DNA of 64,000 nt from Humisphaera borealis (lineage in GTDB: Bacteria; Planctomycetota; Phycisphaerae; Tepidisphaerales; Tepidisphaeraceae). Shown piece after piece: positions 7,498 through 54,729 of this stretch. The DNA lies in the NCBI RefSeq assembly GCF_015169395.1, contig NZ_CP063458.1, positions 4,960,001 to 5,024,000 of the forward strand. The letters run 5' to 3'. The position numbers and the translations under genes are program-made. Below the pieces are notes generated by a model. It saw only the letters and a program-made list of their open reading frames with translations. It did not search any database and had not been told where the DNA came from. Position 1 is the first letter of the stretch, and each line of letters begins with the position of its first letter.

Positions 7498-7518
7498 GTC
7501 CGCCAAGGCGGACCCTAC
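7498..7518 (-). repeat. Single GTAGGGTCCGCC element overlapping the GMC stop codon
   Basis: On the minus strand the sequence reads GTAGGGTCCGCCTTGGCGGA, a hairpin GTCCGCC-TT-GGCGGA with a GTAG foot. The TAG of GTAG at 7515-7517 is the stop codon of the GMC oxidoreductase gene. The same element is found as inverted pairs at 37439-37540, 50438-50504 and 54626-54729. Confidence 0.8.
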
Positions 7519-9305: not shown

Positions 9306-9711
9306 GTCGGGTCCCTCGTAAGACGTGCGCTGAGCACGGAGAAGTTGTAACACACGCGGCGGCGATTGCGGAATGGCGTGAAGAACAGAGCGATGTGGAG
9401 GACGGGGCGGCGAGGAGGATCGACATGCTAACGGTGGGGCAGACATTCTTGTCTGCCGCGTTTCCGCGACGCCGGCATTCCTGCCGGCTTGAGCGGGAAC
9501 GCCGCCTCCACGCGGGAACATTGACTTCGCATGACCTCGGCCGGGCAGGAATGCCCGGCACTCGGCCATGCGAGGCAGACAGGAATGTCTGCCCCACTGG
9601 AGCTGTTTCTGATTGATTTGGGTTTGACCCGGCGACTCAACGCGGCTATCCTACTTGCCAGTCAGTTGCAAATAGACTTTCGGCGATCGATTGGCGAAAC
9701 GAGGAGATCCT
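9306..9711. other. Intergenic region with repeats
   Basis: This 406-base gap separates the divergent GMC and ABC-transporter genes, so promoters for both should lie here. Most of it (9434-9600) is a cluster of palindromes described separately. I see no convincing gene; the minus-strand frame through it is a repeat-driven extension of the GMC gene. Confidence 0.6.
9434..9600. repeat. Cluster of four related small palindromes in a nested inverted repeat
   Basis: The outer arms read GTGGGGCAGACA-TTCT-TGTCTGCC at the left and GGCAGACA-GGAA-TGTCTGCCCCAC at the right, complementary to each other. Inside are GCCGGCA-TTCC-TGCCGGC and GCCGGGCA-GGAA-TGCCCGGC. All four are hairpins of 7-8 bp with a TTCY or GGAA loop, so each outer arm is a palindrome and the pair is also an inverted repeat. 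Confidence 0.85.
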
Positions 9712-36451: not shown

Positions 36452-37093
36452 TCATTCTTCGGTCGCCTTGGGCTCGTCCATCGGCGGCGTGATCGGTTTG
36501 ATCCGGATGTTGCGGAACTCGAACTGCCCGCCGGCGGTGACCTCTACCTGAATGCCGACGAAGCCGACGGCCGGCTCAATGTCGCCGACTTTCCAGGCCG
36601 GCTTTCCGTTGACCTGGGCTTCTGCGGTCTTGCCGATACAGGTGACCTGCAGCTTGTTCCATTCCCCGGCCTTGGCCAGGCCCAGCGCCTTGCCGTCCTT
36701 GTGCCCGACCAGCGAGCCTTCCTGCCCTTGAAGCAGGTTGATCTGCCACTTGGCGGGCCAGCGGCTGAACTTCTTGGCCACCGCGCGGATGAAGATGCCG
36801 GAGTCAAACTTCTCGGCCTGGCGGTTCTTCCATTCCAGCTCGAGCACGAAATCGCCGTAGAGCTTTTCGGAACGGATCAGGCCGTTGCCTTCCTGGATGA
36901 CCAGGCTTCCGTTCTCAACGCCGGCCTTGCAGTTGCTGACGATCCAGCCGGCCAGATCCTTGCCGTTAAAGAGGGAGACGAACCCGTCGTCTTTGCCCGC
37001 AGGCTTTGTCGCTTCGGCGGGCTTGTCCGCGGCGAAAACGGCAGGGGTGGACAGCACTGCAATCAGCAGGGTGGCGAGGAATCGGTTGGTCAT
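36452..37093 (-). CDS. DUF1080 domain-containing secreted protein
   Basis: 213 aa. Signal peptide FLATLLIAVLSTPAVFAA is followed by the DUF1080 (3-keto-disaccharide hydrolase/concanavalin-like) domain: FVSLFNGKDLAGW, GLIRSEKLYGDFVLELEWKN, SGIFIRAV, WQINLLQGQEGSLVG and FEFRNIRIKPI. The family is strongly expanded in planctomycetes and may bind or cleave sugars outside the cytoplasm. It is divergent from the 84-aa gene and followed by a metallophosphoesterase gene. Confidence 0.92.
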   Translation of the reverse strand: MTNRFLATLLIAVLSTPAVFAADKPAEATKPAGKDDGFVSLFNGKDLAGWIVSNCKAGVENGSLVIQEGNGLIRSEKLYGDFVLELEWKNRQAEKFDSGIFIRAVAKKFSRWPAKWQINLLQGQEGSLVGHKDGKALGLAKAGEWNKLQVTCIGKTAEAQVNGKPAWKVGDIEPAVGFVGIQVEVTAGGQFEFRNIRIKPITPPMDEPKATEE

Positions 37094-37187
37094 ATTAGAG
37101 GACTATCCTACAACCCGTCGTTCCGTTGGCCATCCGATTTCACCGCACTACTGACATCCGCCCGTTCCGGATATACTACCCGGACCT

Positions 37188-37442
37188 ATGACTGACCTGA
37201 TGCGTGAAAAGCTTCTCCCCGGCGTCCGGGTTCGGGTGACTCAGCAGATCGCCGCCCGGCACTATGCCCTGACCAGCGAAATCCGCGGAACCGTGGTGGA
37301 ATACAAGCAGAAGAGCACCGGCTCCTGGTACGCCCACTCGAAGAACGACAAGCTCTGGCTCGACCGTCTGCTGATCAAGAAGGACGACGGCGAACTGACG
37401 ACGCTGAACCTCGACGAGTTCACGCGGATTACGGTCGAGTAG
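37188..37442 (+). CDS. Small conserved-looking protein of unknown function
   Basis: 84 aa, start ATG 37188. The sequence alternates beta-rich stretches (GVRVRVTQQI, IRGTVVEYKQKSTGSWYAH, LWLDRLLIKKDDGELTTL) typical of a small SH3-like barrel; no named family recognised. The coding pattern is clear and it is the only plus-strand gene of this size here. The TAG stop at 37440-37442 is the TAG of a GTAGGGTCCGCC repeat element, so the element donates or replaces the native stop. Confidence 0.7.
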   Translation: MTDLMREKLLPGVRVRVTQQIAARHYALTSEIRGTVVEYKQKSTGSWYAHSKNDKLWLDRLLIKKDDGELTTLNLDEFTRITVE

Positions 37443-37540
37443 GGTCCGCCTTGGCGGATGCGACCTCCGCCCAACCCACACGGCTTTCGCCTACGATTCC
37501 CATCGACCTCTCCATTGCGTCCGCCAAGGCGGACCCTACG
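37439..37540. repeat. GTAGGGTCCGCC inverted pair overlapping a stop codon
   Basis: The left copy is GTAGGGTCCGCCTTGGCGGA at 37439-37458. The right copy, on the opposite strand, occupies 37517-37540 and reads the same from the other side, ending CCCTAC followed by G. Each has a GTCCGCC-TT-GGCGGA hairpin with a GTAG foot. The TAG of the left foot is the stop codon of the 84-aa gene; the right copy ends 15 bases before the next gene. Confidence 0.88.
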
Positions 37541-37554
37541 GGCGGACTTTAGGT

Positions 37555-38487
37555 ATGGACGCAGCCATCTTCGGCCTGATCGTTGCCGACCTGATCGCCG
37601 AGCCGTTCGATCTGCGCCATCCGCCCGCGCCCGGTGGCCTGGTGCTGTGCAATTCGATTCAACTCACCACCGGCGGCAACGTCTGCAATTCCGGCATCGC
37701 GATGGCGAAGCTCGGGATGAAGGTCGCGGCGGCCGGGACTGTCGGTAACGATGTGCTGGGCTCAGCGGTCATCGAACGGCTGACGACGGTGGGCGTAGAT
37801 ACCACTGCTGTCTTTCGCGACGCCGACGCCCAGACCGCCGCTACAGTGGTCGCGGTTGAGCCCGGCGGCGAGCGCTGCTTTTTTCACACTGTCGGGGCGA
37901 ACAAGGGAATTGATGCCGATCTTTTCCGCCGGTGTATTCCGGTGCTTGCCCGATGCGCCTGGGTTCAGATCGGCTACTTCGGCCTTCTGCAGAAACTGGT
38001 CCCGGACCTGCCCGCATGTCTTGCCGAGCTACGAAAGGCCGCGCCGGGCGTGAAGATCGCGTTCGATACAGTAAATCCACCGGGCACGCGGGCCGAACTG
38101 GACCCCATTCTGCCGCACCTGGACCTCTTCGCCCCCAGCCGCACCGAAGCCGCCGGCCTGACTGGCGAAACCGACCCCAAGCGCATGGTCGCGAGTTTTC
38201 GCAGGCAGATGCCGCGCGGCATCATAGGCATCAAGCTCGACGCCGAGGGGTGTCTGCTCGACGACGGCGACCACGCCGTTTTCGTCCCGGCCTGCAAAGT
38301 TGATGTCGTCGATACCACCGGTGCCGGCGATTCCTGGTTCGGCGGATTGCTGACGGGCCTGATCAAGCAGATGCCCCTAGAACAAGCCGGCCGTTTCGCC
38401 AACCGAGTCGCCGCCGACTGCTGCACGGCGCTGGGCGCTTCGGCGGGAATTCGGTCGTTCGATGAGACGATGGCGCGGATGAAATGA
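37555..38487 (+). CDS. PfkB-family carbohydrate kinase
   Basis: 310 aa. GGNVCNSGIAMAKLGMKVAAAGTVGNDVLG at residues 41-70 is the first PfkB signature, and DTTGAGDSWFGGLLTGL near residue 250 is the second, with the catalytic Asp. It phosphorylates a sugar or nucleoside; the substrate cannot be assigned. ATG 37555. It is followed by nagA with an inverted repeat between, so it may act on an amino sugar, but that is inference from proximity only. Confidence 0.92.
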   Translation: MDAAIFGLIVADLIAEPFDLRHPPAPGGLVLCNSIQLTTGGNVCNSGIAMAKLGMKVAAAGTVGNDVLGSAVIERLTTVGVDTTAVFRDADAQTAATVVAVEPGGERCFFHTVGANKGIDADLFRRCIPVLARCAWVQIGYFGLLQKLVPDLPACLAELRKAAPGVKIAFDTVNPPGTRAELDPILPHLDLFAPSRTEAAGLTGETDPKRMVASFRRQMPRGIIGIKLDAEGCLLDDGDHAVFVPACKVDVVDTTGAGDSWFGGLLTGLIKQMPLEQAGRFANRVAADCCTALGASAGIRSFDETMARMK

Positions 38488-38648
38488 AAGAGAAAGCCAC
38501 AGAGACGCCGAGGCACAGAGGGCCGATTCGAGCTCGATCGTCGCCGCCAGATCTGAAATGTTCTATGCTTGAATTCGACACCGGGGAAATGGCGTTCACA
38601 TGACAAGTTGCCCTCTGTGCCTCGGTGCCTCTGTGGCTTTCCTTTCAT
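38484..38648. repeat. 39-bp-arm inverted repeat
   Basis: Arms 38484-38522 and 38610-38648 are near-perfect complements (ATGAAAG...CCACAGAGAC...GAGGCACAGAGGG and its complement). The left arm begins within the last codons of the kinase gene: the ATGAAA-TGA end lies in the repeat. The wording of the arms matches the outer arms of 2696-2925. Confidence 0.88.
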
Positions 38649-38687
38649 ATGGTAGTGGCGATCCCGTGAGTTGCCGAGGAACGTCGA

Positions 38688-39911
38688 ATGCAGCCTGACA
38701 CGACCGCCAATTCCATTCGCATCATCAACGCACGACTCGTGATGTCGGACAAGGTCGTCGACGGCGGCACGGTCACAGTGCGCGACGGCCGGATCACGTC
38801 GGCGGGGCTCGCCGGCGCGTCGCCGCCGGCCGATGCGCCGATCGTGGATGCCGGTGGGGCATACATTGCCCCTGGCTTTGTTGACATTCACGTCCATGGT
38901 GGTGCCGGCAGTGACTTCATGGACGGAACGTCGGAGGCCTTCGAGGCGACCATCCGCTGCCACTTGAGGCACGGTACGACCAGCATCGTCCCGACTAACA
39001 CCGTCGGGAAGCACGACCGCATCATGAGGTTTCTCGAACTGGTTCGGCGATTTAAAGCCAGTGGTCCGGACGCCGTCCGCGGATTGGGGCGGGTGGTCGG
39101 TTCGCACCTGTACGGTCCCTACTTCGCCGAGGAGAAGATCGGCTGTCACCCGCACGACTGCCGTCCACCGACCGAGGCAGAGTACCGGCAGTACCTGTCG
39201 TTCGCCGACAGCATGCTCCTGGCGACCTGCGCACCGGAACTGCCGGGCGCGATCGGCTTCTACCAGGCCGCACGCGCGCTCGGTGTCCGTCTGAACGCCG
39301 GCCATTCCAACGCCACCTGGACGGAGATGCAGTCGGCATACGAAGCCGGTGTGCGGCACGTGGACCACTTCTTCTGCGCGATGAGCAACTATGTCAGCAC
39401 CCGTAACCGTGTCGGCACGCCGATGCAGGGCGGCATGCTCGAATACGTGCTGGCGAGCGACGACATGACGACCGAACTCATCGCCGATGGCCGCCACCTG
39501 TCGCCCGAGTTGCTTCGATTCCCGCTGAAGATGCTCGGCGTAGAGCGTGTGGCACTGGTGACGGATTGCAGTCGTGCCCTGGACATGCCGCCGGGCAACT
39601 ATGTTTTCGGGCCCACTGATGGCGGTGGAGAAGATTTCTACAGCGACGGCAGCGTCGGGGTGACGCTCGATCGCAAGGGCCTTGCGAGCAGCGTTCGTGG
39701 CATGGACTTTATGATCCGACAGATGGTGCGTGAGGCCGGCATCGACCTGCCTGTGGCTGTACAAATGGCATCGCTAACGCCGGCACGTATCCTGGGCCTT
39801 GAAGGCGACATCGGTTCTCTCGCGCCCGGCAAATTTGCCGACCTGGTCATGCTCGATTCGGAATTGAACGTTCAACGGGTTTGGGTTCAGGGAGTTGAAG
39901 CGGTCCAGTGA
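38688..39911 (+). CDS. nagA: N-acetylglucosamine-6-phosphate deacetylase
   Basis: 407 aa amidohydrolase that removes acetate from GlcNAc-6-phosphate in amino-sugar catabolism or wall recycling. Metal-site landmarks are GFVDIHVHGGAGSDFMDGT, GSHLYGPYF, LNAGHSNATW, HVDHFFCAMSNY and LVTDCSRALDMPPG, where the Asp is catalytic. The end SLAPGKFADLVMLD is the family C-terminal beta segment. Normal length. It follows a PfkB kinase and is followed by a small membrane protein. Confidence 0.93.
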   Translation: MQPDTTANSIRIINARLVMSDKVVDGGTVTVRDGRITSAGLAGASPPADAPIVDAGGAYIAPGFVDIHVHGGAGSDFMDGTSEAFEATIRCHLRHGTTSIVPTNTVGKHDRIMRFLELVRRFKASGPDAVRGLGRVVGSHLYGPYFAEEKIGCHPHDCRPPTEAEYRQYLSFADSMLLATCAPELPGAIGFYQAARALGVRLNAGHSNATWTEMQSAYEAGVRHVDHFFCAMSNYVSTRNRVGTPMQGGMLEYVLASDDMTTELIADGRHLSPELLRFPLKMLGVERVALVTDCSRALDMPPGNYVFGPTDGGGEDFYSDGSVGVTLDRKGLASSVRGMDFMIRQMVREAGIDLPVAVQMASLTPARILGLEGDIGSLAPGKFADLVMLDSELNVQRVWVQGVEAVQ

Positions 39912-39972
39912 GCCGAAGCGGCGATCGTGCGCTGACAAGGTCCAAGCGACTTCTCGTACCCAGGGCGTTCCG

Positions 39973-40221
39973 ATGAACGCCCACTTAACGTCACTGCACA
40001 ACTCCAAGGCACTCATGCGGATCTGGCTTGCACGCTTCGGCTTCTCATTCCTTGTACTGGCGTGCGTGCTCTTCTACACCGCCTGGAAGCGGCAGAAAGT
40101 GGAAGGCACGAGTTCCCGCGTGGTGATGGAAACGGTCGGCGGGGCGTTGCTGGCCGGCGCGGGGTTCGCGGGATTGCGAGAGCGGCACCGACCGCGTAAC
40201 GACCAGGACCCGCAGGACTAG
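39973..40221 (+). CDS. Small single-pass membrane protein
   Basis: 82 aa from ATG 39973 (the frame opens at 39895, overlapping the nagA end). One membrane segment FGFSFLVLACVLFYTAWKR is followed by a basic stretch and GGALLAGAGFAGLRERHR, a possible second hydrophobic turn. No family recognised. It ends just before a strong hairpin. The call rests on position, length and the hydrophobic pattern. Confidence 0.5.
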   Translation: MNAHLTSLHNSKALMRIWLARFGFSFLVLACVLFYTAWKRQKVEGTSSRVVMETVGGALLAGAGFAGLRERHRPRNDQDPQD

Positions 40222-40240
40222 TGCGCGGGACCAAAACGAA

Positions 40241-40273
40241 GCAGGCCTGATCCAGCACGTGGATCAGGCCTGC
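40241..40273. terminator. Bidirectional hairpin terminator
   Basis: A 14-bp perfect stem (40241-40254 with 40260-40273, GCAGGCCTGATCCA and its complement) surrounds a 5-base loop. It sits between two convergent genes (ends at 40221 and 40310), so it can serve both strands. The plus strand continues CTCTTCG without a strong T-tract. Confidence 0.75.
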
Positions 40274-40309
40274 CTCTTCGATAGTCTTCGGGCGTTGCGG
40301 CGGCGGCGA

Positions 40310-41026
40310 TCAGTTGCCCTTGCTCTTGGCCTTGCGTTCCTCGGCTTTAGCCTTGGCGGCCTGAGCGGCGGCCTCGCGCTGCTGGACGGCGGCCTGCTTC
40401 ATGCCTTCCTCGGCGGTCACCACGGCGGCCTGCGCCTGGGTGTACTGTTCGGTCAGCATCATGTATTCCGGGTCGGCGGCGCAGGCTTCGTCGATCTGCG
40501 ACTTGAAGCCTTCAATAACCTTGTTCGCCTCGGCCAGTCGTGCGACGGCGTCGTTGTACTTGACGTCCTTCTCGACGGCGGTGCGTTCCAGGGTGCTGAT
40601 CGTGGTTGCGTGGCGGATCGATTCTTCCGACAGCTTGTTGAACTCGGCCTGCCCGCCGCCGGCCTGCTGCAACTCACGCATCTTCGTCTGGACGGCGGCC
40701 TTGGCGTTCACGGCACTGATGTATTCAGGCTTGGCCCGGACGGCCGTCATCGCCGCCTGCTTGGAGGAATCGATCTCGGCCTTGGCCTTGATCGCGTCGG
40801 CCTCGGCCTTGGCAAAGTCGGGGTTCGTGGTCTTGAATCCAGTTGCGACGCGGACACGGGCTTTGTCCAGGGCTGCCTTGGCGGCAACCACCGCAGTTTG
40901 AGCGGCGGTGACCTGCTTTCGAGCCGCGACGACCGGCGAGTCGGCCGCCTGCCCGAACGCGCTCGTCGATGCCGACGAGAAACCCAATGCCAATGCCAGT
41001 CCGAGGACGATTCGCTGCGCTTTCAT
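40310..41026 (-). CDS. Exported coiled-coil protein of unknown function
   Basis: 238 aa from ATG 41026. Signal peptide MKAQRIVLGLALALGFSSAS with Ala-x-Ala-like cleavage near TSAFGQA. The rest is almost entirely Ala/Lys/Glu-rich helix with heptad character (AARKQVTAAQTAVVAAKAAL, QREAAAQAAKAKAEERK). No enzyme motif. Probably periplasmic and structural. The frame extends to 41167, but the signal peptide fixes the start. It diverges from mnmG. Confidence 0.75.
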   Translation of the reverse strand: MKAQRIVLGLALALGFSSASTSAFGQAADSPVVAARKQVTAAQTAVVAAKAALDKARVRVATGFKTTNPDFAKAEADAIKAKAEIDSSKQAAMTAVRAKPEYISAVNAKAAVQTKMRELQQAGGGQAEFNKLSEESIRHATTISTLERTAVEKDVKYNDAVARLAEANKVIEGFKSQIDEACAADPEYMMLTEQYTQAQAAVVTAEEGMKQAAVQQREAAAQAAKAKAEERKAKSKGN

Positions 41027-41220
41027 TCGAGATTCCTCCGTCGTTTCCGCCTTGTTGCGAGGCGATCCAGTAGTATTCTTCGAGACGTTTCCGAGTCGAT
41101 GCCGCTGCCAGGGATGGTAGAGTATATCACGCTCGCCGGTGTGGGCCATAGAATCCAAATTCGACAAGGGTGATTCCGGTCGGCCCAGCGGCGGACCTCG
41201 GTCTCGGACGTAAGTTTCGT

Positions 41221-43233
41221 ATGAGTATGCACTTCGATATCGTCGTGATCGGCGGCGGACACGCCGGTGCCGAGGCCGCCTGGGCGGCCGGGCGGATGGG
41301 AGCCTCCGTCGCGCTGGTCACCCTCGATCCGGCCCGCACCGGCCAGATGTCCTGTAACCCCGCGATCGGCGGGCTCGCCAAAGGGCAGATGGTTCGCGAG
41401 ATCGATGCCCTGGGCGGCCTGATGGGCCTGGCGATCGACGCCACCGGCATTCAGTTCCGGATGCTCAATCGATCCAAGGGCCCGGCCGTCTGGGGACCTC
41501 GCGCCCAGGCCGACAAGTACAAGTACGCGGTCGAGGTGCAGCGGCTGTTGTCCCGATGCAAGAACATCACGATCGTGCGCGGGGAGGTCGCTGAGATCGA
41601 AACTGGCAAGGATGACGTCGCAACGATTGGTGATGAACCATCCCGATCCGAGCCGTCCTCCGTTATTCCAGCGTCAGCCGTGTCTCGGGTCACGGGAATC
41701 CAGCTTGCCGATGGCACGCGTATCTCTTGTCGTGCGGTGGTAGTCGGGTCCGGCACGTTTCTGCGCGGGCTCATGCACACCGGCGAGCACAAGAGCGAAG
41801 GCGGCAGGGTCGGCGAAGCCGCGGCCCGCGGGCTGTCAGGATGTCTGGCGCGCCTGGGCCTGGAGCTAGGCCGCCTGAAGACCGGCACACCGCCACGGCT
41901 CGACGCCCGGACGATCGACTTCTCCCGTTTCGAAGCCCAGCCGGGCGACGAGGAGCCGGCGCCGTTTTCGTATCTGAATGAGTACCGCGGTGGCGCTCCG
42001 AGAATAGATGATGGAGAATTGAGGATTGCCGACTCAGCGTCTACCCCACCGTCCATCGTCGATCCTCAATCCTCGACCGGTCGGAGGCGAAGCCTGACCG
42101 GCAATCCCTGGTCTCCTCCGCTTCGGCAAGTGCAGTGCTGGATCGGCGCGACCAACGAGCAGATCCACCAGATCATCCGGGCGAACCTGCATCGCGCGCC
42201 GATGTATTCCGGCCAGATCGAAGGCACCGGCCCGCGCTATTGTCCGAGCATTGAAGACAAGGTCGTTCGCTTCGCCGACAAGCAGAGCCACCACATCTTC
42301 CTCGAGCCTGAGGGCCTCGATACCGACGAAATCTATTGCAACGGTATCTCCACCAGTCTGCCCTCGGACGTGCAGGAACAGATGATCCGGCTCATCCCCG
42401 GCTTGGAGAACGCCACCATTCTGCGTCATGGATATGCCGTCGAGTATGACATGGTCTGGCCGACGCAGATCCGCTCGACGCTGGAGACCAAGAGCGTTCG
42501 TGGCCTGTTCCTGGCCGGCCAGATCAACGGCACCAGCGGGTACGAGGAAGCCGGTGCGCAGGGCCTGGTCGCTGGCGTGAACGCCGCCCGCTACGCGGCC
42601 GGCACCGATCCCGATTTCGTGCTTCGGCGGGATGAAGCGTACATCGGCGTGCTGATCGACGATCTGGTGACCAAGCCGCCGATCGAACCGTACCGGATGT
42701 TTACCAGCCGCGCCGAGCACCGCCTGCAGCTTCGTGCCGATAACGCGGACGAGCGCCTGACCCCCGTCGGCCGACGGCTGGGCCTGGTCGATGACGAGCG
42801 GTGGCAGGCATTCGAGTCGCGGCAGGCCGCAATCGCGGGCGCACAGGCGGTCCTTGCTTCTGTTCGCGTCGAAGGCACGCTCCTGGGCGAATGGCTCCGC
42901 CGGCCGGACGTCACCTGGCAGTCGGTCGTTGCCCGTCACGCGCCGCTGGCCGACGTTCCCACCGACGTCAGCCGACTGGTCGAGATCCGCGCCAAATATT
43001 CAGGATACGTCGCGCGGCAGGACAAACAGATCGAGCGAATGACACAGCTCGAGCAGAAGCTGATCCCCGACTGGATCGACTATGCCAGCGTCACCGGCCT
43101 TAGAAATGAGGCTCGCCAGAAGCTGACGAAGTTCACCCCGCGCAGTCTAGGGCAGGCGCTGCGCATCAGCGGCATCACGCCGGCCGACGTGACGGTACTG
43201 GCGATCCATTTGACGAAGTCCCGGCACGGTTGA
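41221..43233 (+). CDS. mnmG: tRNA uridine 5-carboxymethylaminomethyl modification enzyme MnmG
   Basis: About 670 aa FAD protein that, with MnmE, makes the cmnm5U34 modification in tRNA. FAD motif [16 protein letters not shown] at residues 4-19, then TCNPAIGG-like [54 protein letters not shown] and [12 protein letters not shown]: all typical. It is longer than most MnmG (about 620-630 aa) because of two insertions, near residues 123-160 and 259-297. The second contains an inverted repeat. ATG 41221 gives a normal start. MnmE is not in the window. Confidence 0.96.
41998..42105. repeat. Inverted repeat inserted inside mnmG
   Basis: The segment GATGATGGAGAATTGAGGAT near 42008-42027 is an imperfect complement of CCATCGTCGATCCTCAATCC near 42053-42072. 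The insertion keeps the mnmG reading frame and encodes residues with no place in the MnmG family ([13 protein letters not shown]... [12 protein letters not shown]). It separates the two conserved segments ending [12 protein letters not shown] and starting [11 protein letters not shown], which are normally close together. Confidence 0.65.
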
Positions 43234-43266
43234 GCTGCGCGCAGCGGCATCGGTATAGCAGGGTAA

Positions 43267-43379
43267 AACGCGAACGCCGAACGCCCAACATCGAACACCC
43301 AACGCCGAACACCGAAGTCCTGTTATTCCACTCGCCTCTTTCATTCGATGCTCGATGCTGGATGTTCGACGTTCGCATT
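43267..43379. repeat. Inverted repeat of CGAACGCCGAAC type
   Basis: The left arm 43267-43303 is a run of CGAAC units (CGCGAACGCCGAACGCCCAA...). The right arm 43342-43379 holds TCGATGCTCGATGCTGGATG and TTCGACGTTCGC, its imperfect complement. It lies about 35 bases after the mnmG stop. The remaining gap to 43572 shows no further structure. Confidence 0.75.
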
Positions 43380-43572
43380 TGACCTAACCGACGCCTTCCC
43401 CATTCAAGCTCGACCCAAGGTTGCCTTCCATCCTTCGGTGCCTATCCTATTTTCCTCCGCGGCCCGACGTCATGAAGATCGCTCGGGCGGCCGATGAAAC
43501 GGAGGACGCAGCGTCCGCATTGGCGGACTATCCGTCCCGTCCGTACAGCGAATCCCAGCGAAGAGAGACCTT
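43380..43572. other. Intergenic stretch upstream of the guanylyltransferase gene
   Basis: With the repeat just before it this makes a 339-base gap between mnmG and the next plus-strand gene. I see no gene in it. It should hold the promoter of the guanylyltransferase gene, but I recognise no clear site. Confidence 0.4.
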
Positions 43573-44685
43573 ATGCAGTATGGCGTGATCATGGCAGGCG
43601 GCGCAGGCACGAGGCTCTGGCCCCTCTCGCGAAACGAAAAGCCCAAGCAGCTCCTTCAGGTCGTCCGCGGTAAGAGCCTGCTGCAACTGAGCTACGAACG
43701 GCTGCGAGCGATCCTGCCAGCGAACCAGATTTTCGTCTGTACCGGCGAGCAACACCGGGCAGCCGTTCTCGCGAACCTGCCCGAGCTTCCGTCCGATAAC
43801 GTGCTGGGCGAGCCGATGGGCCGCGATACCGCCAACGCCGTGGGTTTTCCCGCCGCCGTGCTGCTGAAGCGCGACCCGGACGCGATCATGGCGATCACGA
43901 CCGCCGATCATGTGATCGAACCGCAGGAGAAGTTTCAGGCGTCGCTGAAGACGGCGTTTGCCGTCGCCGAGCAGCAGCCCAAGAGCCTGGTCACGTTCGG
44001 CATCGTCCCCACATACGGCCATACAGGCCTGGGCTACGTACAGCGCGGCGAAGCGCTCAAGATCAAGACCGACGCCGGCGCGCCGGGCGCGTTCAAGGTT
44101 CAAAGCTTCAAGGAAAAGCCGGACAAGGCGACTGCCGACCGCTACGTCGAGAGCGGCCGCTTCTACTGGAACAGCGGCATGTTTGTCTGGCGCTGTGACA
44201 CGGTCCTGGGCGAGCTCGCCCAGCATCTGCCCGAAAGCTACAAGGGCCTGACGGAAATCGCAGAAGCCTGGGATACGCCGCGTCGGCAGGAAGTCCTGAG
44301 CAGCGTGTATCCGAAGCTTCCGAAGATCAGCATCGACTTCGCGATCATGGAGCCGGCCAGCCAGGGCAAGGGCAAGGCGACGGTCGCCGTGGTCGAGATG
44401 CCCGTCCAATGGCTTGATGTCGGCTCGTGGCCGGCGCTGGCTGAAACGCTGGCGACCGACGAACACAACAACGCCACCGAAGGCGGCGCGTTCGTGTTTC
44501 TCGACAGCGACGACAACATCGTCGTCAGCGAAGACCCCAACCATTTGGTCTCCCTCATCGGCGTCAGCGACATGATCGTCGTTCACACCAAGGACACGAC
44601 CATGGTCTGTCCCAAGAGCGAGTCGCAGCGGGTTAAGGACATGACCGTGAAGGTGAAAGAGAAGTTCGGCGGCAAGTACCTGTAG
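43573..44685 (+). CDS. Mannose-1-phosphate guanylyltransferase (monofunctional)
   Basis: 370 aa. YGVIMAGGAGTRLWPLSRNEKPKQLL at residues 3-28 is the nucleotidyltransferase signature with catalytic Arg and Lys. ITTADHVIEP, the mannose site, and FKEKPDKATADRYVESGRFYWNSGMFVWR follow. It makes GDP-mannose from mannose 1-phosphate and GTP, supplying mannose and fucose to surface glycans. It lacks the C-terminal isomerase domain of bifunctional ManC/AlgA. It could supply the GT2 enzymes in the window. Confidence 0.94.
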   Translation: MQYGVIMAGGAGTRLWPLSRNEKPKQLLQVVRGKSLLQLSYERLRAILPANQIFVCTGEQHRAAVLANLPELPSDNVLGEPMGRDTANAVGFPAAVLLKRDPDAIMAITTADHVIEPQEKFQASLKTAFAVAEQQPKSLVTFGIVPTYGHTGLGYVQRGEALKIKTDAGAPGAFKVQSFKEKPDKATADRYVESGRFYWNSGMFVWRCDTVLGELAQHLPESYKGLTEIAEAWDTPRRQEVLSSVYPKLPKISIDFAIMEPASQGKGKATVAVVEMPVQWLDVGSWPALAETLATDEHNNATEGGAFVFLDSDDNIVVSEDPNHLVSLIGVSDMIVVHTKDTTMVCPKSESQRVKDMTVKVKEKFGGKYL

Positions 44686-44748
44686 CCGTCGATCGCCGGG
44701 ATGACCCATGGGGGATGGGGACTCGATGACTGGGCCGTTTCATCGCAT

Positions 44749-44797
44749 GTGGTGCAGGCGTCCCGCCTGCCAGGCAGCCGGGACGCCTGCACCACAA
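44749..44797. repeat. 24-bp-arm inverted repeat (GTGGTGCAGGC family)
   Basis: Arms 44749-44772 and 44774-44797 are near-perfect complements (TGTGGTGCAGGCG... and ...CGCCTGCACCACA), with almost no loop. Same family as 13088-13149. It sits between the convergent guanylyltransferase and cdsA genes and could terminate both. Confidence 0.88.
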
Positions 44798-44821
44798 GGA
44801 CGTTGATTCACGCACAATCTT

Positions 44822-45805
44822 TCACGTCACGCGGTAGAACCAACGGACGAGGTGGAAGAAGACCGGCGCGGCGAAGGTGATCGAATCGATTCGGTCCATC
44901 ATTCCGCCGTGTCCGCCGATGAGATTTCCGTAGTCTTTCACACCAGCGTCGCGCTTGATCGCCGACATGACCAGTCCGCCGAAGAACCCGAGCAGCACGA
45001 CGGTGATGCCGATGCCCATCGCGGCGTAGACGTCGAATGGCGTCAGGAACCGCAGGAGCACGCCGAGGCCCGTTGCCGACAGCACGCCGCCGACAAACCC
45101 TTCCCACGTTTTGCTCGGGCTGATGTTGGGCGCTATCTTGTGTTTGCCAAACGTCTTGCCCCACACGTACTGCAGCACATCGCTCATCTGTACCGTGATC
45201 ACGAGCCAGACCAGGAGCTTCCAGGTGTCCTCGGCGGCCATCCCGGCGACCTTCAACGTCAGCAGCAGCGGGGCATGGCTGACGCAGTACACGCAGATCA
45301 TCACGCCCCATTGCACCTTCGCCGTGCGCTCCATGTACCGCGTCGCGTCACCGGCCATCGCGCTGCGGATCGCCAGGAACAGGAAGCAATAGACAGGAAT
45401 GAAGCTCGACGCCATCCCGTACCACTCCTGCCGGACGAAGTAATACTGAAGCGGCGTGATGACGAAAAACGCCCAGAACAACGTGTGATGATCGCCCCTG
45501 CGGGTGGGGGAAAGCGTGATCATTTCTCGCAGCGCAAAGAACGATACGAGGCCGAACAGAACGCAAGCGCCGGTCAACCCGAAGTAAATCGCCGACCCGA
45601 ACACCAGCGCCATCACCCACCAGGCGTTAATGCGGGCGTTGAGGTTCTCGACGGTGCGCTTTGCGGATTCCGATTTGGCGCGCAATCGAAGGACCTGTCC
45701 TACGAGCGTGGAAACGCCAAGTAATCCGGCGACGGCACCGGCCAGAATCTTCGCATCGCGGTCGGGTTGAAGCATGATGATGGCCGTAGTGTTAACGGCA
45801 GCCAT
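44822..45805 (-). CDS. cdsA: Phosphatidate cytidylyltransferase
   Basis: About 327 aa with seven or eight membrane segments. The C-terminal signature is seen in SDVLQYVWGKTFGKHKIAPNISPSKTWEG and FFGGLVMSAIKRDAGVKDYGNLIGGHGGMMDRIDS, the CDP-diglyceride synthase motif S-x-x-K-R-x4-K-D-x-x-x-x-x-P-G-H-G-G-x-x-D-R-x-D (here IGGHGG). It makes CDP-diacylglycerol for phospholipid synthesis. The frame runs back to 45991 into the upstream gene, past a terminator at 45855-45897, so the real start is probably ATG 45805 or 45775; neither has a clear ribosome site. Confidence 0.92.
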   Translation of the reverse strand: MAAVNTTAIIMLQPDRDAKILAGAVAGLLGVSTLVGQVLRLRAKSESAKRTVENLNARINAWWVMALVFGSAIYFGLTGACVLFGLVSFFALREMITLSPTRRGDHHTLFWAFFVITPLQYYFVRQEWYGMASSFIPVYCFLFLAIRSAMAGDATRYMERTAKVQWGVMICVYCVSHAPLLLTLKVAGMAAEDTWKLLVWLVITVQMSDVLQYVWGKTFGKHKIAPNISPSKTWEGFVGGVLSATGLGVLLRFLTPFDVYAAMGIGITVVLLGFFGGLVMSAIKRDAGVKDYGNLIGGHGGMMDRIDSITFAAPVFFHLVRWFYRVT

Positions 45806-45854
45806 TCGCGTGTGCAACGGCAGGACCTGCTCTGCTCCTGTTGGAATGATCGGC

Positions 45855-45897
45855 AGAAGAAAAAGGGCGGCGGCCACCGCCATAGTGTCCGCCGCCC
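45855..45897 (-). terminator. Rho-independent terminator of the PEP-CTERM gene
   Basis: Read on the minus strand, GGGCGGCGG (45889-45897) and CCGCCGCCC (45865-45873) form a 9-bp GC stem with a 15-base loop. It is followed by TTTTTCTTCT. It lies 42 bases after the stop of the upstream minus-strand PEP-CTERM gene and before cdsA, so it separates the two transcripts. Confidence 0.85.
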
Positions 45898-45938
45898 GCC
45901 ATGAAGCAATCTGTTCAAACCGTCGCCGTCGCGAGCCG

Positions 45939-46832
45939 TCATGCGAAGGTCGCCGAGCGGCGACGACGCAGCAGGAGCATTCCGCCGGCACCGATCATTC
46001 CGATGCATGACGGTTCGGGTACGAGTACGGTATTGATATAGGCCTGCGCGTTGGCGACATCGCCTGACGTGACCCCGCCGAACTCATTCTTCTGGAGCAG
46101 GATGTAATAGGTCAGCGAGTCGGTAAGCGGGGCGGCAGACGGGGCCGATGCGGGCGTCGCCGACGCCAAATCGGTGTAGACACTGAGCTTCAACGACGCC
46201 AGGTAGAGACCGTCGTCGATCACATTGCCTGCGCCCGGCACCGATGATCCGGTCGGTCCGAGCAACCGCCAGCGTGCCTGGCTGTGTGCAGTGGCGGTGG
46301 TGCCGACGGCACCGGTGACGAAACCCGTACCGGTCAGTGTGCCGTCGCTGGTGATGGTGTTGGGGAAGCCGGTCGACGTAAAATTACCGCGAATTCCCTG
46401 TAGCTTCTCACCGCCGGTGGCGACGAAGCTGTTGGAGACAGGCGACCAGACCTTGGCTGCGTCTGCAAAGTTGACTCGGAAAACGTTGGTCGAAGCGAAT
46501 GAACCCAGACCGAAGGCGACGCCCGGTCCCAGGAATGTGGTGTCAGCACCGGTGCTGGCCTGTGTGGTGGTCAGTTGTCCGTACCAGCCGTTGTCCGCGG
46601 CGAAGCCAACCGCCGATTGGTAGGCGGTGGGATAGAAGAAGGACCGGCTGGCGTTCCCAGGCGCGTAACCATTGGCATCGCCGTCATCGAGATCGATTTC
46701 GTAGGTAACGATGCGCCCGCTTTCCAGCTTCACCGGAATCACCGGGCCGTGAGCACGGGCGTTCGACGAAAGCAGGGTGGTGGATGCAGTGGCCGCCACC
46801 AGGCACGTGAGAAGCGTTTTCTTGACATTCAT
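45939..46832 (-). CDS. PEP-CTERM sorted surface protein
   Basis: 297 aa. Signal peptide LLTCLVAATASTTLLSSNARA. The C-terminus VPEPSCIGMIGAGGMLLLRRRR is the sorting tag (V-P-E-P, hydrophobic helix, Arg cluster) processed by an exosortase. The body is beta-rich and has no enzyme motif; it opens HGPVIPVKLESGRIVTYEIDL. The next gene upstream encodes a protein opening HYGQRVWVDVDGSGKIVTYRG, so the two are likely related. A terminator lies directly downstream. Confidence 0.92.
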   Translation of the reverse strand: MNVKKTLLTCLVAATASTTLLSSNARAHGPVIPVKLESGRIVTYEIDLDDGDANGYAPGNASRSFFYPTAYQSAVGFAADNGWYGQLTTTQASTGADTTFLGPGVAFGLGSFASTNVFRVNFADAAKVWSPVSNSFVATGGEKLQGIRGNFTSTGFPNTITSDGTLTGTGFVTGAVGTTATAHSQARWRLLGPTGSSVPGAGNVIDDGLYLASLKLSVYTDLASATPASAPSAAPLTDSLTYYILLQKNEFGGVTSGDVANAQAYINTVLVPEPSCIGMIGAGGMLLLRRRRSATFA

Positions 46833-46874
46833 TGCATTTCCTCGCGGACTATCTTTGAAGGTGAAGTTTGAAGG

Positions 46875-47687
46875 TCAGTTCCGTCGCGATCGAGACCGCC
46901 GTAAGAGCAGCCCGGTGAAAGCGAGAAGGGTGATGGACGCAGGTTCCGGCACGAGCGTCGCGGCTGCGACGTCGTGGGCGGCCTGCAGATTCTCCAGGGA
47001 CGCGTTTTTCCCCAGGATCAGATAGAAGGTGTCGGAGGTCGTGTAGTTGTCGTTCCGAAGCCGCAGCCCCAGCGCGTAGATTCCGTCGTACAGATCGTTC
47101 CCGCTGGACTGGTTCGGATAGACCAGGGTGTTCTGCGGGTGACCGTGTCCGCCGCCGGTGAAGGCATTGCAGACCGAGTCGACGGAGATTTCGCTCAAGG
47201 GGCTGGTGCCGAAGGTCGCCGAGTCGCCGACGGTGAACCTCGGAATGGCATTGCCAGCGAACGCCGTGGAAGCGGGCACGTAGTGGGCGAGTGTCGCGCC
47301 GATCTGGGGCACGAAATACTTGACCTCTCCGACGATGTCGAGACGGAACGTTCCCGAGAGCGTTGTTGCCGGTACGGGCTTGGCTTCGTAGCCGGCGAAC
47401 TGGGTTGCGTAGTTAACCCCGTCGTCATCGAAGCTGCCGTCGCCGACGGCTTGATTGAGGTCGCCGAGATCGCCCATGTCACGCGCGAAGATCCTCCATG
47501 GAGAGAACTCGCCCGGTAGGTAGGGATTGGTCCCACCGGGATTGGGGCGGTCGCCCGCCGGCCCCCGGTAGGTGACGATCTTCCCGCTTCCGTCGACGTC
47601 CACCCATACGCGTTGTCCGTAGTGGGCCTGCGCCGTCGAAACGGCAAGGCCAGCCACGCACACGCCAAACGCGAGTGCCTTCAACAT
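46875..47687 (-). CDS. PEP-CTERM sorted surface protein
   Basis: 270 aa. Signal peptide LKALAFGVCVAGLAVSTAQA. The mature part begins HYGQRVWVDVDGSGKIVTYRG and has TFYLILGKNASLENLQAAHDV near the end. It closes VPEPASITLLAFTGLLLRRSRSRR, the sorting tag. The N-terminal similarity to the neighbouring protein (GR-IVTYE/GKIVTYR) and a shared ..TYYILL/TFYLIL element suggest a duplicated pair. A pseudopilin gene precedes it on the same strand, 23 bp away. Confidence 0.92.
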   Translation of the reverse strand: MLKALAFGVCVAGLAVSTAQAHYGQRVWVDVDGSGKIVTYRGPAGDRPNPGGTNPYLPGEFSPWRIFARDMGDLGDLNQAVGDGSFDDDGVNYATQFAGYEAKPVPATTLSGTFRLDIVGEVKYFVPQIGATLAHYVPASTAFAGNAIPRFTVGDSATFGTSPLSEISVDSVCNAFTGGGHGHPQNTLVYPNQSSGNDLYDGIYALGLRLRNDNYTTSDTFYLILGKNASLENLQAAHDVAAATLVPEPASITLLAFTGLLLRRSRSRRN

Positions 47688-47710
47688 CTGTACTCCAGGG
47701 GTACCGGCGG

Positions 47711-48454
47711 CTACTGAATGACCGCCGGATTGAAAAGGTTTCTTGTCGGATCCGTGTAAACAGACCGAAGCGGCAGCGTCTCGGCGTGTCCGTCGAGAAA
47801 GCTGTAATTAAGAAGTGCGTCCCAGCTCTTGTCCCGATCGTCATGCCGGCCGAGCGCTACTTCCCCGGCGATCTTGTTCAGCGTCAGCTGAGGCGATCCC
47901 GCAGAGTAGAACGAATCGACATGAACGTGGTCCGCCAGTGCCTTGCCGCCGAACTCCACCAACTCCAGAAATTGGATGACGCTCGACGACTGACGCACCT
48001 GGGTGATCTTGATGACCGGCGTAATGCCGGTCGGTGCGTGTTTGGCCGAGACGTAGTTATTGATGGCGTAGCTGCAGGTTCGGTAACCCGGAATGCCGGC
48101 GAGAACGAACGGGGCTTCGAAGTACGGGCTTCGGTCCGCCGGACAGCGCCGCGCAAGCGGCGCTGCCGAGTAGCGTTCCAAGGCACCGATCCAGGAACCC
48201 TGCTCGATCGCGAAGCTGCCCTGATCACTGGCCTGCACGAGGTGGTTGCGATTCTCGGCCGCATACATCATCTGAGCTGTGGCCAGGGTACGGATATTGG
48301 CCAGGCACTTGGTGCTGTTGGCCTGCCTCCGCGCCGCCGCAAGCGACGGCAGGAGGATGCCAATGAGCACTGCGATGATGCCGATCACGACGAGCAGTTC
48401 GACAAGGGTGAATCCCTGCCGAGACCGCTGGCCGTGCGGTGACGAAGACCGCAT
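47711..48454 (-). CDS. Type II secretion-like pseudopilin (H-X9-DG/DUF1559-like)
   Basis: About 247 aa. [34 protein letters not shown] at the N-terminus is a class-III prepilin signal with Glu at +5. NYSFLDGHAETLPL is the D-G-H motif of the family. ATG 48454 has GGAG six bases upstream; the frame also opens at 48481. It stands first in a minus-strand series with two PEP-CTERM genes, and the three are probably co-transcribed. Confidence 0.9.
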   Translation of the reverse strand: MRSSSPHGQRSRQGFTLVELLVVIGIIAVLIGILLPSLAAARRQANSTKCLANIRTLATAQMMYAAENRNHLVQASDQGSFAIEQGSWIGALERYSAAPLARRCPADRSPYFEAPFVLAGIPGYRTCSYAINNYVSAKHAPTGITPVIKITQVRQSSSVIQFLELVEFGGKALADHVHVDSFYSAGSPQLTLNKIAGEVALGRHDDRDKSWDALLNYSFLDGHAETLPLRSVYTDPTRNLFNPAVIQ

Positions 48455-48590
48455 GACTGCTCCGGGGCGTGCGACGCCCATTCGACGCCGAGTAGTCGCG
48501 ACGAAGCCGTTATGGCTTCACACAACTTCGGCGGCGCATGATGGCGCGCGAGCAACTGAACTGGTGAACCAGATGAAAGTGAGACGCACA

Positions 48591-49019
48591 TTACAACCGG
48601 GCAGGTGGGCCGGTGGCATCGTAGGGGAGGGCGATGTGGATCGAGGCAATGGCACCCGGGCCCGAAGGCGACAGCCGCTCGACGAGCCCGGTAGGTGAAG
48701 GCACGAAATCAGGCGGAGGCGCGGGTGTAAGCCGGACTGCGATGTGGCAGACCGCACAATGGCTCAGCTTCTTTAGCGGATTCTCAGATTGACTGGATTT
48801 GCCTCCCGTACCAGCAGGCGATGAAGCACTGGTGTCGCAGCAGGAGTGACGCTTCTCGACGACGCAGGAGCCGCCTTTCGTCGCGGTCTCATTGATCGTC
48901 GTCCCGGCGACGGCCATGGCACCACGCTGATGACCCGGAAGGATCACCAGCAGCCAGGCCGCTTGCTGGAGGAGGACGAGAATGGTGAGAAATCGCTTCA
49001 AGCTTAGAGTCGCCGCCAA
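48591..49019 (-). CDS. Cys-rich exported protein, DUF2946-like
   Basis: 142 aa. A hydrophobic N-terminus (FLTILVLLQQAAWLLVILPG) suggests export. Four Cys lie in the middle (SCVVEKRHSCCD and HCAVCHIAV), with CxxCH like a heme or metal site. Size and pattern resemble DUF2946-type metal-related proteins, but I cannot confirm it. The frame starts at TTG 49019; no ribosome site favours any start. It is divergent from the broken outer-membrane gene. Confidence 0.5.
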   Translation of the reverse strand: MAATLSLKRFLTILVLLQQAAWLLVILPGHQRGAMAVAGTTINETATKGGSCVVEKRHSCCDTSASSPAGTGGKSSQSENPLKKLSHCAVCHIAVRLTPAPPPDFVPSPTGLVERLSPSGPGAIASIHIALPYDATGPPARL

Positions 49020-49257
49020 GGTACTTGTCGACCGATCCCGCGCCAGTATTACACCCGTGATGAGCGCAGATCAATCCTGCAATCGGCCCCGGCGACACGT
49101 TTGCTGTCGCAACTACTGGACGTTGTCAGCTCGGCCGGGCATCGCAGTCAGCCATCGTCCGCCGGCTCACTGAAATCATGCAGGCGGTCGGGATTTCACC
49201 CTGACGATTTGATACCCGATAGGCATGATGCCGGTCGAAGTTTAAGGAATAAGAACT

Positions 49258-50424
49258 GTGTTGTACCTACGGCGTCTATTCATCCTCCTCGCGTTCTGTT
49301 TCGCGCTGTCGACAGGGTCTCGGCCTGCGCTCGCGTGCCCCAAGTGCAAGGCCGGTATTCTCGCGGAACTGAAGTCGCTGCAGATTACTCCCCTCGACGA
49401 GCCTGCCACGGAAGTCTCCACGAAGACCGCGCACGGGCCAGCGGACTGTCCTGACTGTGTGGACAAGCCTTCCACGCCGCCGACGCAGACGCTGCCGTTC
49501 TCCTTCTCGGTCGGTGCGGACGTGACCACCGCTTACTTCCATCGTGGCCTGAACATGGGCGATTAGGGCGTCATCTTCCAGCCCTTCGCCACGCTGTCGC
49601 TCCCTGATGTCCATGTCGGATCCGCCTGGATTCGGCCGTACGTGGGGACGTGGAATAGTTCCCAGGAGGGCCGCCGGGGGCATGGTGTTGTGCCGCCGAA
49701 TGAATCGACCTCCGCGTCGCAGGGACGAATCATCCAGGAGACACCGGGCGCTCCGCGCGGCCCGTTCCCGCGCCATTACACCGGCGATCCGTCGCACGAT
49801 GCGGCGTACCTGGATCAGCTCAACGAGTTCTTCGGCGGCGAGGTGTCCACATCCAGCCCCAACGCCGGCTGGAGCTGGTACGAGGCCGAGCTCTATGGCG
49901 GCGCGCTGTTCGGACTCGGGCCGGCGACGTTCGACCTGAAGTACAGTGCCCGGCTCTACCCCGGCGGTGATGTCGCCAGCTATCAGGAAATCAGCGGTAA
50001 GCTGTCGCTTGAGACGGCGCAGTGGCTTGCGAAATCTGCCATCACGCCCCAGTCCCTCCGCCCTTACGCCGAACTTTCGTACCAGGTCGCCGGGAGCGAC
50101 GGTCACGACATGTACCTGGAATTGGGCCTGGAGCCGACCTGGCTCGTGCCGGTCGGCGACAAGCTACTGGGGATCTCAACTCCCGTGCTGGCCGGTCTGA
50201 GCCTCAGCGATTACTACCTCGATCAGTACGGCCGCAATGAAACGCTGGGCTACCTCTCGGCGGGTGTGAAACTGAGCCTGCGGCTGTCTTCGTCGCCTGC
50301 GGGCGATGTCTATCTCAACGCATCGGTCAACTACCTGCGCCTCGAGTCCGACCTGCTCGTACTCGCCAACGACGGGCGGCAGGATGCGGTGGTCGGCACG
50401 CTGGGCGTCAGCTATTCCAGATAG
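49258..50424 (+). pseudogene. Outer-membrane-type protein gene interrupted by one in-frame TAG
   Basis: A single frame runs from GTG 49258 (AAGGAATAAG upstream) to 50424, broken only by TAG at 49564-49566. The N-terminal part has a signal peptide, CPKCKAGI and CPDCVD, then the beta-barrel-like ADVTTAYFHRGLNMGD. Directly after the stop the frame continues GVIFQPFATLSL and ends with barrel-like strands (GVKLSLRLSSSPAGDVYLNASVNYL). A CAG to TAG change would restore the whole 388-residue protein. The position of the break, at the first predicted strands of a TIGR02001-like outer-membrane protein, suggests a recent nonsense mutation or a sequencing error. Confidence 0.75.
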
Positions 50425-50437
50425 AGGTCTTGCAGCC

Positions 50438-50504
50438 TAGGGTCCGCCTTGGCGGATGCGACCGGCCCGACCGCGCGACCACGTCCGCCAAGGCGGACCC
50501 TACG
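50438..50504. repeat. GTAGGGTCCGCC inverted pair
   Basis: The left copy 50438-50462 is TAGGGTCCGCCTTGGCGGAT, here preceded by C rather than G. The right copy 50480-50504 is its complement ending CCCTACG, so it does read GTAG from the other strand. It lies 13 bases after the stop of the broken barrel gene, between two convergent genes. Confidence 0.85.
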
Positions 50505-50543
50505 TCGCAAAACATCCGGCCGCGTCCCGCGTTCCTGTTAGAG

Positions 50544-51428
50544 TCAGTCCGACACAACTTCAGGCATCTCCAGTTCAAGGAACCGGTGGATGTTCTGTGC
50601 GACGTAATGGATGTCGGGATAATCCACGTCCAGCTCGACCGTCACGAAGACGCCCTTGTTGTGGTCCGACGCGATGATCACATGGCGGTCGCCGTTGAGG
50701 GCGTACCCTTCGTCCTGTGGCTGATGGCCGGTGATCAGCAGCTTGGCACCGACCCGTTCCAGGAACGCGTCCACGCCGGCCGGTGTTGCCCGTCGGCCCC
50801 AGATCAACTGGTATACCGGCCCGACCTTGCGGGTGTAGTCGTTGGCGACCAACTCGCGGTCCAGCGCCGTGTAGTCGAAGGTCGGGATCAGGTCGTCCGG
50901 CGGCAGGCTGTGGCTGACAAAGATGCCATTCCCCGTCTTGATCGCCAGGGGCTGCGACAACAGGAACTCGGTGATCGCCACCTGCACCTTGTAGCGGGCG
51001 TCGCCAAAGTCGCGCTTGATGCCCTTGTTGAACCCTTCACAGACGCTCACGCCGGCCTTCATGATCCCTTCGCCGTGGATCTGCGCCAGGTCGTGATTGG
51101 CGAGCAGAAAGTGGACCTGCTCGGGGAACTCGCACTTCAACTCCGCCGCCCGAACCAGCATATGCCAGGAGTCTTCGGCCCCCTCGGCGTCCCAGTGATC
51201 GCCGTGAATGATCTCATGCAGGATGATGTGCCGCGTGGGGTTGTTCGCTAAATCCGCATACGCGAGAAACTTGGCGAAGTTCCGCCGATGGTCGTGGACG
51301 TCGCCGACAATCCAGAGATCCCCCTCCGGCGGCAGATGGATCGTCTGCCCGACGCGGTGAGGCTCGCGCTGGTTTTCCTCAGCGGCACACCCGAGCGATT
51401 CGATGACGGCTTCGGCGTTGTAGGACAT
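50544..51428 (-). CDS. Cytosolic metallophosphoesterase
   Basis: 294 aa without a signal peptide. Metal-ligand motifs are IVGDVHDHRRNF, HGDHWD, LLANHDLAQ, FVSHSLPP and ITGHQPQDEGYAL. The layout resembles protein- or nucleotide-phosphatases of the PPP-like calcineurin group. The frame opens at 51575, but ATG 51428 removes a non-family extension. It is divergent from the glycosidase-glycosyltransferase gene. Confidence 0.85.
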   Translation of the reverse strand: MSYNAEAVIESLGCAAEENQREPHRVGQTIHLPPEGDLWIVGDVHDHRRNFAKFLAYADLANNPTRHIILHEIIHGDHWDAEGAEDSWHMLVRAAELKCEFPEQVHFLLANHDLAQIHGEGIMKAGVSVCEGFNKGIKRDFGDARYKVQVAITEFLLSQPLAIKTGNGIFVSHSLPPDDLIPTFDYTALDRELVANDYTRKVGPVYQLIWGRRATPAGVDAFLERVGAKLLITGHQPQDEGYALNGDRHVIIASDHNKGVFVTVELDVDYPDIHYVAQNIHRFLELEMPEVVSD

Positions 51429-51742
51429 AGGCAAATCTGTCGGGGTGGAGGAGTGTTCGGACGGCTCTTGCTCTGCTCGACGCGACCCTGCATATCGCGT
51501 GATTGGCTGACAATCTACCACGTCACCCATCCACCGATCCACTCCGATACCCGCGCACTTATCGGACTCAATCATTGAACCGAAACGCCGATCCGGTCTA
51601 ACCTCCGCCGCTCTCGGGTGTCAGGAACAGAATCATTCGTTTCGCGAACGGATTTTACCGGTCGTACAGATCGGGTTCGCGACGTAGGATATTGCCCTGT
51701 TCAACCGGATTGCTTCGGGTTTCGTCCAAGAATCGGAGTTCG
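51429..51742. other. Intergenic region, upstream parts of divergent genes
   Basis: This stretch and the repeat at 51743-51795 make a 453-base gap between two divergent genes. Open frames exist on both strands but only as upstream extensions of the flanking genes. I see no further gene; the promoters of both genes should be here. Confidence 0.45.
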
Positions 51743-51795
51743 TGTCGCAGGCTTCCCGGCCTGTGTCACTTTGCAGGCTGGAAGCCTGTGCTGCG
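51743..51795. repeat. Inverted repeat, diverged member of the GCAGGCTT-CC family
   Basis: Arms 51743-51765 (TGTCGCAGGCTTCCCGGCCTG) and 51772-51795 (GCAGGCTGGAAGCCTGTGCTGCG) are complementary with several mismatches. The core GCAGGCT-TCC/GGAAGCCTG matches the repeat at 13088-13149. It lies about 90 bases before the start of the glycosidase-glycosyltransferase gene. Confidence 0.75.
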
Positions 51796-51881
51796 AAACC
51801 CGTCGGCATGACAGCGAGAACCGGGGTACACCAACCCAGCCGCACTCCCGGATTCACTCGCGCGAGCGAGGTAGGCCACCC

Positions 51882-54629: not shown

Positions 54630-54729
54630 GGTCCGCGTTGGCGGATTCGATTCTTCCGAAACCCCGAACTCGAAACGGTTTCTCTAACGCTCGCGGAAGT
54701 GCCTCGCGTCCGCCAAGGCGGACCCTACT
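54626..54729. repeat. GTAGGGTCCGC inverted pair spanning the entire gap
   Basis: The left copy GTAGGGTCCGCGTTGGCGGA starts at 54626 and its TAG (54627-54629) is the stop of the fusion gene. The right copy, reverse oriented, ends CGGACCCTAC at 54728 and T at 54729; the ATG of the exporter is 54730. The pair therefore occupies the whole intergenic space, about 50 bases of spacer included. Confidence 0.88.

Follow-up and report, generated by a model that had tools for sequence, protein, structure and literature searches.

A GTAG-footed REP family whose foot often coincides with the stop codon of genes in a planctomycete genome

Introduction

REPs of the GTAG super-family (Di Nocera et al., 2013, PMC3733652; Nunvar et al., 2010, PMC2817692) have been reported in Planctomycetes and Verrucomicrobia, and the text of these papers, as far as it is accessible, speaks of nearness to the 3' ends of genes (<20 bp) and contains no mention of an overlap between foot and stop codon. 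The family that we describe here, REP-A, was found in a 64-kb window (the whole stretch of DNA covered by the initial annotation) of a planctomycete genome, and resembles the super-family in its 5' GTAG foot, its short perfect hairpin, its hundreds of copies, its intergenic location, its inverted dimers and its proximity to 3' ends. Its stem, TCCGCC-TT-GGCGGA, is absent from the searchable full texts. The GTAG REP/REPIN kind, the inverted dimers and the nearness to 3' ends are already known, whereas for the rule linking the foot to stop codons we found no report: a search of the accessible main texts returned no statement that the foot is a stop codon. Such silence is weak evidence of novelty.

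Outward-footed inverted doublets are also the hallmark that REP-A shares with the REPINs and BIMEs of Pseudomonas and E. coli; in P. fluorescens, doublets are found in opposite orientation at 60-70 bp (PMC3390384). REP-A is set apart from these in that its spacers are unrelated between doublets and its feet abut genes on both sides. Elements of the IS200/IS605 family (IS608) are positioned 3' of a tetranucleotide that is part of the target. The GTAG that precedes REP-A likewise seems to be target sequence; unlike those elements, REP-A is only ~25 nt long, forms doublets with no gene inside and encodes no TnpA transposase, and we did not assign it to IS200/IS605. In the TnpAREP enzymes known so far, cleavage takes place at C|T and is guided by GTAG, rather than occurring at GTAG itself (PMC8266576).

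Results

A REP family of the GTAG super-family

REP-A (GTAGGGTCCGCCTTGGCGGACGCGA) consists of a foot and a hairpin, laid out as GTAG-GG-TCCGCC-TT-GGCGGA-CGCG(A), and is present in the window as seven good copies and a degenerate one; the shuffled window sequence gave no match. The genome is a single contig of 7,189,892 bases (the 1.66 Mb sampled first have a G+C content of 63%), in which the exact core TAGGGTCCGCC occurs 247 times, against three for the reversed control, and in which 271 copies are found at no more than one mismatch of the 19-mer. Copies lie mainly outside genes (12 of 111 are intragenic), and an Rfam search of window positions 37000-55000 yielded no RNA family. A short hairpin that folds follows the GTAG foot after 0-2 nt, the copy number is high, inverted dimers are formed and a RAYT gene exists in the genome: REP-A is a REP family of the GTAG super-family, as the initial annotation had proposed from the GTAG-footed hairpin. 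Three copies in direct orientation at an exact 117-nt spacing (G000:C1:378981-379234, G000 being this genome) belong to a tandem repeat of which the REP is part.

Relatives of one window gene came mostly from Phycisphaerales and Tepidisphaeraceae assemblies. Among 40 relatives, only a genus-mate, G001, carries more than two copies of REP-A, with 11 in an assembly that is 65% complete.

Copies in the window

All four places listed in the initial annotation hold the repeat to within one base, and at three of them the foot TAG is exactly a stop codon, as claimed. A single copy, an exact match at 7499-7518 on the minus strand, has its foot TAG (7515-7517, read on that strand) as the stop of a GMC oxidoreductase gene (7515-9569, minus strand). 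The C-terminal Pfam domain of this protein is complete 16 residues before its end, and its orthologue in G001 terminates at the identical residue, there with a TGA stop. An 84-aa gene without any Pfam family (37188-37442, plus strand) stops at the TAG of 37440-37442, the foot of the left copy of a doublet (37439-37458, plus strand); its orthologue in G001 is seven residues longer. A unique spacer (37459-37519) separates this copy from the right one (37520-37539, minus strand), whose foot points towards a pfkB-type kinase gene starting at 37555. The third gene encodes a 1003-aa fusion of a glycosidase-like part and a family-2 glycosyltransferase (GT2; 51618-54629, plus strand), and its stop TAG (54627-54629) is the foot of a left copy with one mismatch (54626-54645, plus strand), while the foot of the right copy (54709-54728, minus strand) is separated by 1 nt from the ATG (54730) of an ABC transporter gene. 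The G001 orthologue of the fusion gene has the same last residue and its own TAG, with no REP. Antisense to almost all of the fusion gene runs a 989-aa open frame (51633-54602, minus strand), which is probably an effect of codon usage.

The fourth place has no stop overlap: a copy with a CTAG foot (50437-50456, plus strand) lies 13 nt past the stop of a gene ending at 50424, and its partner (50484-50503, minus strand) lies 41 nt from the stop of a convergent gene ending at 50544. The degenerate copy (43508-43527, plus strand) has a GCAG foot and three mismatches.

Stop-codon overlap across the genome

We sampled 2.43 of the 7.19 Mb, in stretches partly picked around known copies. Set 1 (1.66 Mb) combined the window with a contiguous 0.8 Mb and with stretches surrounding listed copies; our own codon-usage caller found 1138 genes in it, with TAG as 31% of stops. 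Set 2 (0.77 Mb) was held out, being fetched later and read with the same gene model. In set 1, the foot TAG was the exact same-strand stop in 42 copies, and no other single distance was represented by more than four; the overlap was replicated in 26 of the 92 copies of the held-out set. With these counts a chance overlap is rejected. Both sets together give exact overlap in 67 of 205 copies, about a third, with a further 43 copies within 60 nt downstream and three that are read through, which confirms across the genome the excess at stop codons that had been suspected from the window. The exact-stop rate is ~60 times the per-base rate of the next 40 nt, and per base the stop is 35-40-fold denser in REP-A than the next 10 nt. 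The phenomenon extends to REP family C, whose stem is unrelated (CGGGCA) and which sits on exact stops in 7 of 17 cases, and to G001, where 5 of 11 REP-A copies do so; it is less frequent in families B and D (3/27 together).

A stop codon can coincide with the foot either when the GTAG was already there or when REP-A supplies it. Gene ends are naturally rich in GTAG and, counted per GTAG site, stop codons are not enriched for REP-A: 66 of 361 GTAG sites at stops are occupied, versus 38 of 218 located 1-40 nt beyond (p=0.82). The codon before the foot TAG resembles a true last codon (lysine in 18 of 67) and not an interior one. Taking as the null a random cut, that is, an interior codon with its third base forced to G, the native model wins by 8.7 log units (0 of 20,000 simulations), and natural G-ending last codons in turn beat a native model with forced G by 4.2 log units; the held-out half alone discriminates weakly in this test. 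The native share of the overlapped last codons is estimated at 0.85 (95% CI 0.43-1.0); up to about half of the overlapping stops could be supplied by the element. A further signature lies outside the repeat: intergenic copies avoid G at positions -1 to -3 of the foot (p=3e-9 at -1) and favor C and T, and copies on stops avoid G at -3 (p=1e-5) and at -1 (p=0.03). Such a 5' flanking bias has the appearance of a target preference. A search for empty sites, in which both flanks of 140 loci were matched, returned nothing but diverged intergenic sequence or simple repeats.

Doublets and their surroundings

Neighboring copies within 420 nt of each other are inverted with their feet outward in 84 of 94 cases, and most of these doublets span 62-147 nt. 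Their spacers are unrelated (4 of 3403 comparisons among 83 doublets), and as RNA the doublets fold very stably, with z from -6 to -10. Feet crowd within 15 nt of gene ends and also of gene starts, to which distances are less sure than to stops because the start codons of the caller are imprecise; hairpin tails are almost never found so close. Five convergent gene pairs share a doublet whose two feet serve as their stop codons (G000:C1:46066/46114, 208302/208418, 5953317/5953397, 6527435/6527483 and 6703351/6703409). The bases left outside a doublet are far fewer than those of native gaps, and native convergent gaps are better fitted by the spacer plus the outside bases (p=0.64) than by the outside bases alone (p=0.05). 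This hints that the spacer is native sequence bracketed by two REPs, and not part of one inserted unit, although the rule of outward inverted orientation calls for some linkage between both REPs. We also considered the addition of a doublet to a very short junction, which is possible but not supported: in most of 8 cases the orthologous gap in G001 lacks the shortening, by one doublet length, that simple addition would predict (8 doublets versus 28 controls, p=0.45).

Comparison with the genus-mate

The comparison of C-termini with orthologues, by which the initial annotation would have judged the link to stop codons, was partly informative. Of 19 genes that end on a REP here, 8 have the same last residue in G001, among them two of the three from the window, and none of the 19 orthologues is shorter than the REP-ended protein; several are longer by 4-25 residues, as in the case of 208418 (+5). 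Length differences are nevertheless no different from those of 14 control genes that end in GTAG without a REP: 10 of 18 REP-ended genes and 7 of 14 controls are shorter than in G001 (p=0.31). The orthologous stop is TAG for 4 of 19 REP-ended genes versus 3 of 14 controls, so stop-codon identity, being scrambled between both species in the controls too, has no power to reveal an ancestral TAG.

Looking from the other side, four of the five G001 genes with an overlapped stop have their best relative in this genome without a REP at its end. At identities of 52-75% these four pairs are likely orthologous, and since the REP is missing from one member of each, the comparison suggests that the stop overlaps arose separately in the two species. 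One doublet is common to both, at the same gene end (G000:C1:291653-291761 and L201, on G001 contig C77), its foot being shifted by precisely one codon between them (ATA-stop versus ATAS-stop); at least that copy therefore predates the split.

RAYT-type genes

RAYT-type genes do exist in this genome, as had been anticipated: there are 11 Y1_Tnp hits, one of them above the NCBIfam REP_Tyr_transpos cut-off. None of the 11 loci has a REP-A within 1.5 kb. The cognate RAYT may have been lost or may act from elsewhere; many published REPs have no RAYT gene adjoining them. The gene above the cut-off (L041, G000:C1:930440-930601) has inverted hairpins on both sides, GTGGGGCAG[GA]CATTCTTG[CT]CTGCC, which belong to another REP family in the classical RAYT-plus-REP arrangement. 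Two tandem, closely similar RAYT-type genes with 249-aa frames lie at G000:C1:4158951-4160170 (L031, L032, L120), and ~0.9 kb upstream of them there is an inverted REP of family E (GTAGGGAGGGCGTAY...GCCCACGC).

Discussion

We consider it probable that REP-A lands 3' of pre-existing GTAGs near gene edges, and that xxG-TAG stops are simply the commonest of these sites. The hairpin would settle just 3' of a chromosomal GTAG, with a preference for those that lack G among the bases just before them and are located near a gene edge, and would presumably be placed there by a HUH enzyme of the RAYT/TnpAREP type. Since the commonest GTAG at gene ends here is a G-ending last codon followed by a TAG stop, about a third of the copies would come to have a stop as their foot while the protein keeps its native end. 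We infer, then, that the GTAG predates the repeat. Between the two possibilities raised in the initial annotation, an element that targets TAG stops or one that replaces gene ends, the equal occupancy per GTAG, the native last codon, the 5' flanking bias and C-termini that are not measurably shorter favor the first, in a modified form: occupancy applies to GTAGs anywhere near a gene edge, stop codons being the most frequent case. The data do not support a wholesale replacement of gene ends. The further suggestion that C-termini could have been altered genome-wide finds no support either, given native-like last codons, lengths that do not differ from those of controls and only 3 of 205 copies being out of frame and read through. 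Against the occupancy of pre-existing GTAGs stand the lack of an empty site among the loci searched, the low overlap in families B and D, the weak discrimination by held-out last codons alone, the C|T cleavage of the published TnpAREP enzymes, and the lack of a RAYT gene flanked by REP-A among the 11 loci.

The same overlaps could arise if the REP brought its own GTAG near or inside gene ends, where an in-frame TAG truncates the protein by a few codons and survives, while insertions in the other frames are purged. Since the two other frames through REP-A are open, a stop results only from in-frame copies; the longer orthologues in G001, such as those of the 84-aa gene and of 208418, would fit such truncations, and convergent pairs with both feet as stops are easier to obtain if one stop was supplied. 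We nonetheless find this unlikely as a general explanation: the last codon is native-like, controls are often shorter than in G001 too, read-through is confined to three copies, and 66 overlaps at the density seen downstream would, by our reckoning, need a tolerance of ~60 codons per gene. It is possible that a minority of stops were supplied by the element, for instance that of the second gene in some convergent pairs. A gene could also have lost its own stop after the REP had landed downstream, and been extended to the TAG of the REP, which would give exact overlaps as well; with no G001 orthologue shorter than the REP-ended protein among 19, we regard this as highly improbable.

Selection at the RNA level would place the cause in the hairpin itself, 2 nt past the stop, where it could protect the 3' end, stall ribosomes or recruit tmRNA. 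The very stable folding of doublet RNA is in line with such a role, and so is the report that ribosomes stall in E. coli where a REP lies within 15 nt of a stop codon (Liang et al., 2015, cited in PMC5082802). However, a GTAG at a stop is occupied no more than one 1-40 nt further on, feet crowd just upstream of starts too, where a role of this kind makes no sense, and a bias in bases outside the repeat is not predicted, all of which makes this account rather improbable.

If pre-existing GTAGs are indeed what REP-A occupies, G-TAG stops would be insertion hot spots and REPs could crowd at gene ends without harm. It is conceivable, by analogy with IS200/IS605 and with some reservation on our part, that GTAG is at once a part of the REP, the guide of the enzyme and the target of insertion. 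A GTAG target would extend the present picture of TnpAREP, in which GTAG is the guide and cleavage occurs at C|T. A measurable rule of GTAG occupancy, equal at stops and at nearby sites and biased against a preceding G, makes the choice of landing sites by REPs directly testable. Under such a rule, no selection for a regulatory function would be needed to account for the known clustering of REPs at 3' ends. Annotators should take note as well: in such genomes about a third of REPs form part of the stop codon of a coding sequence.
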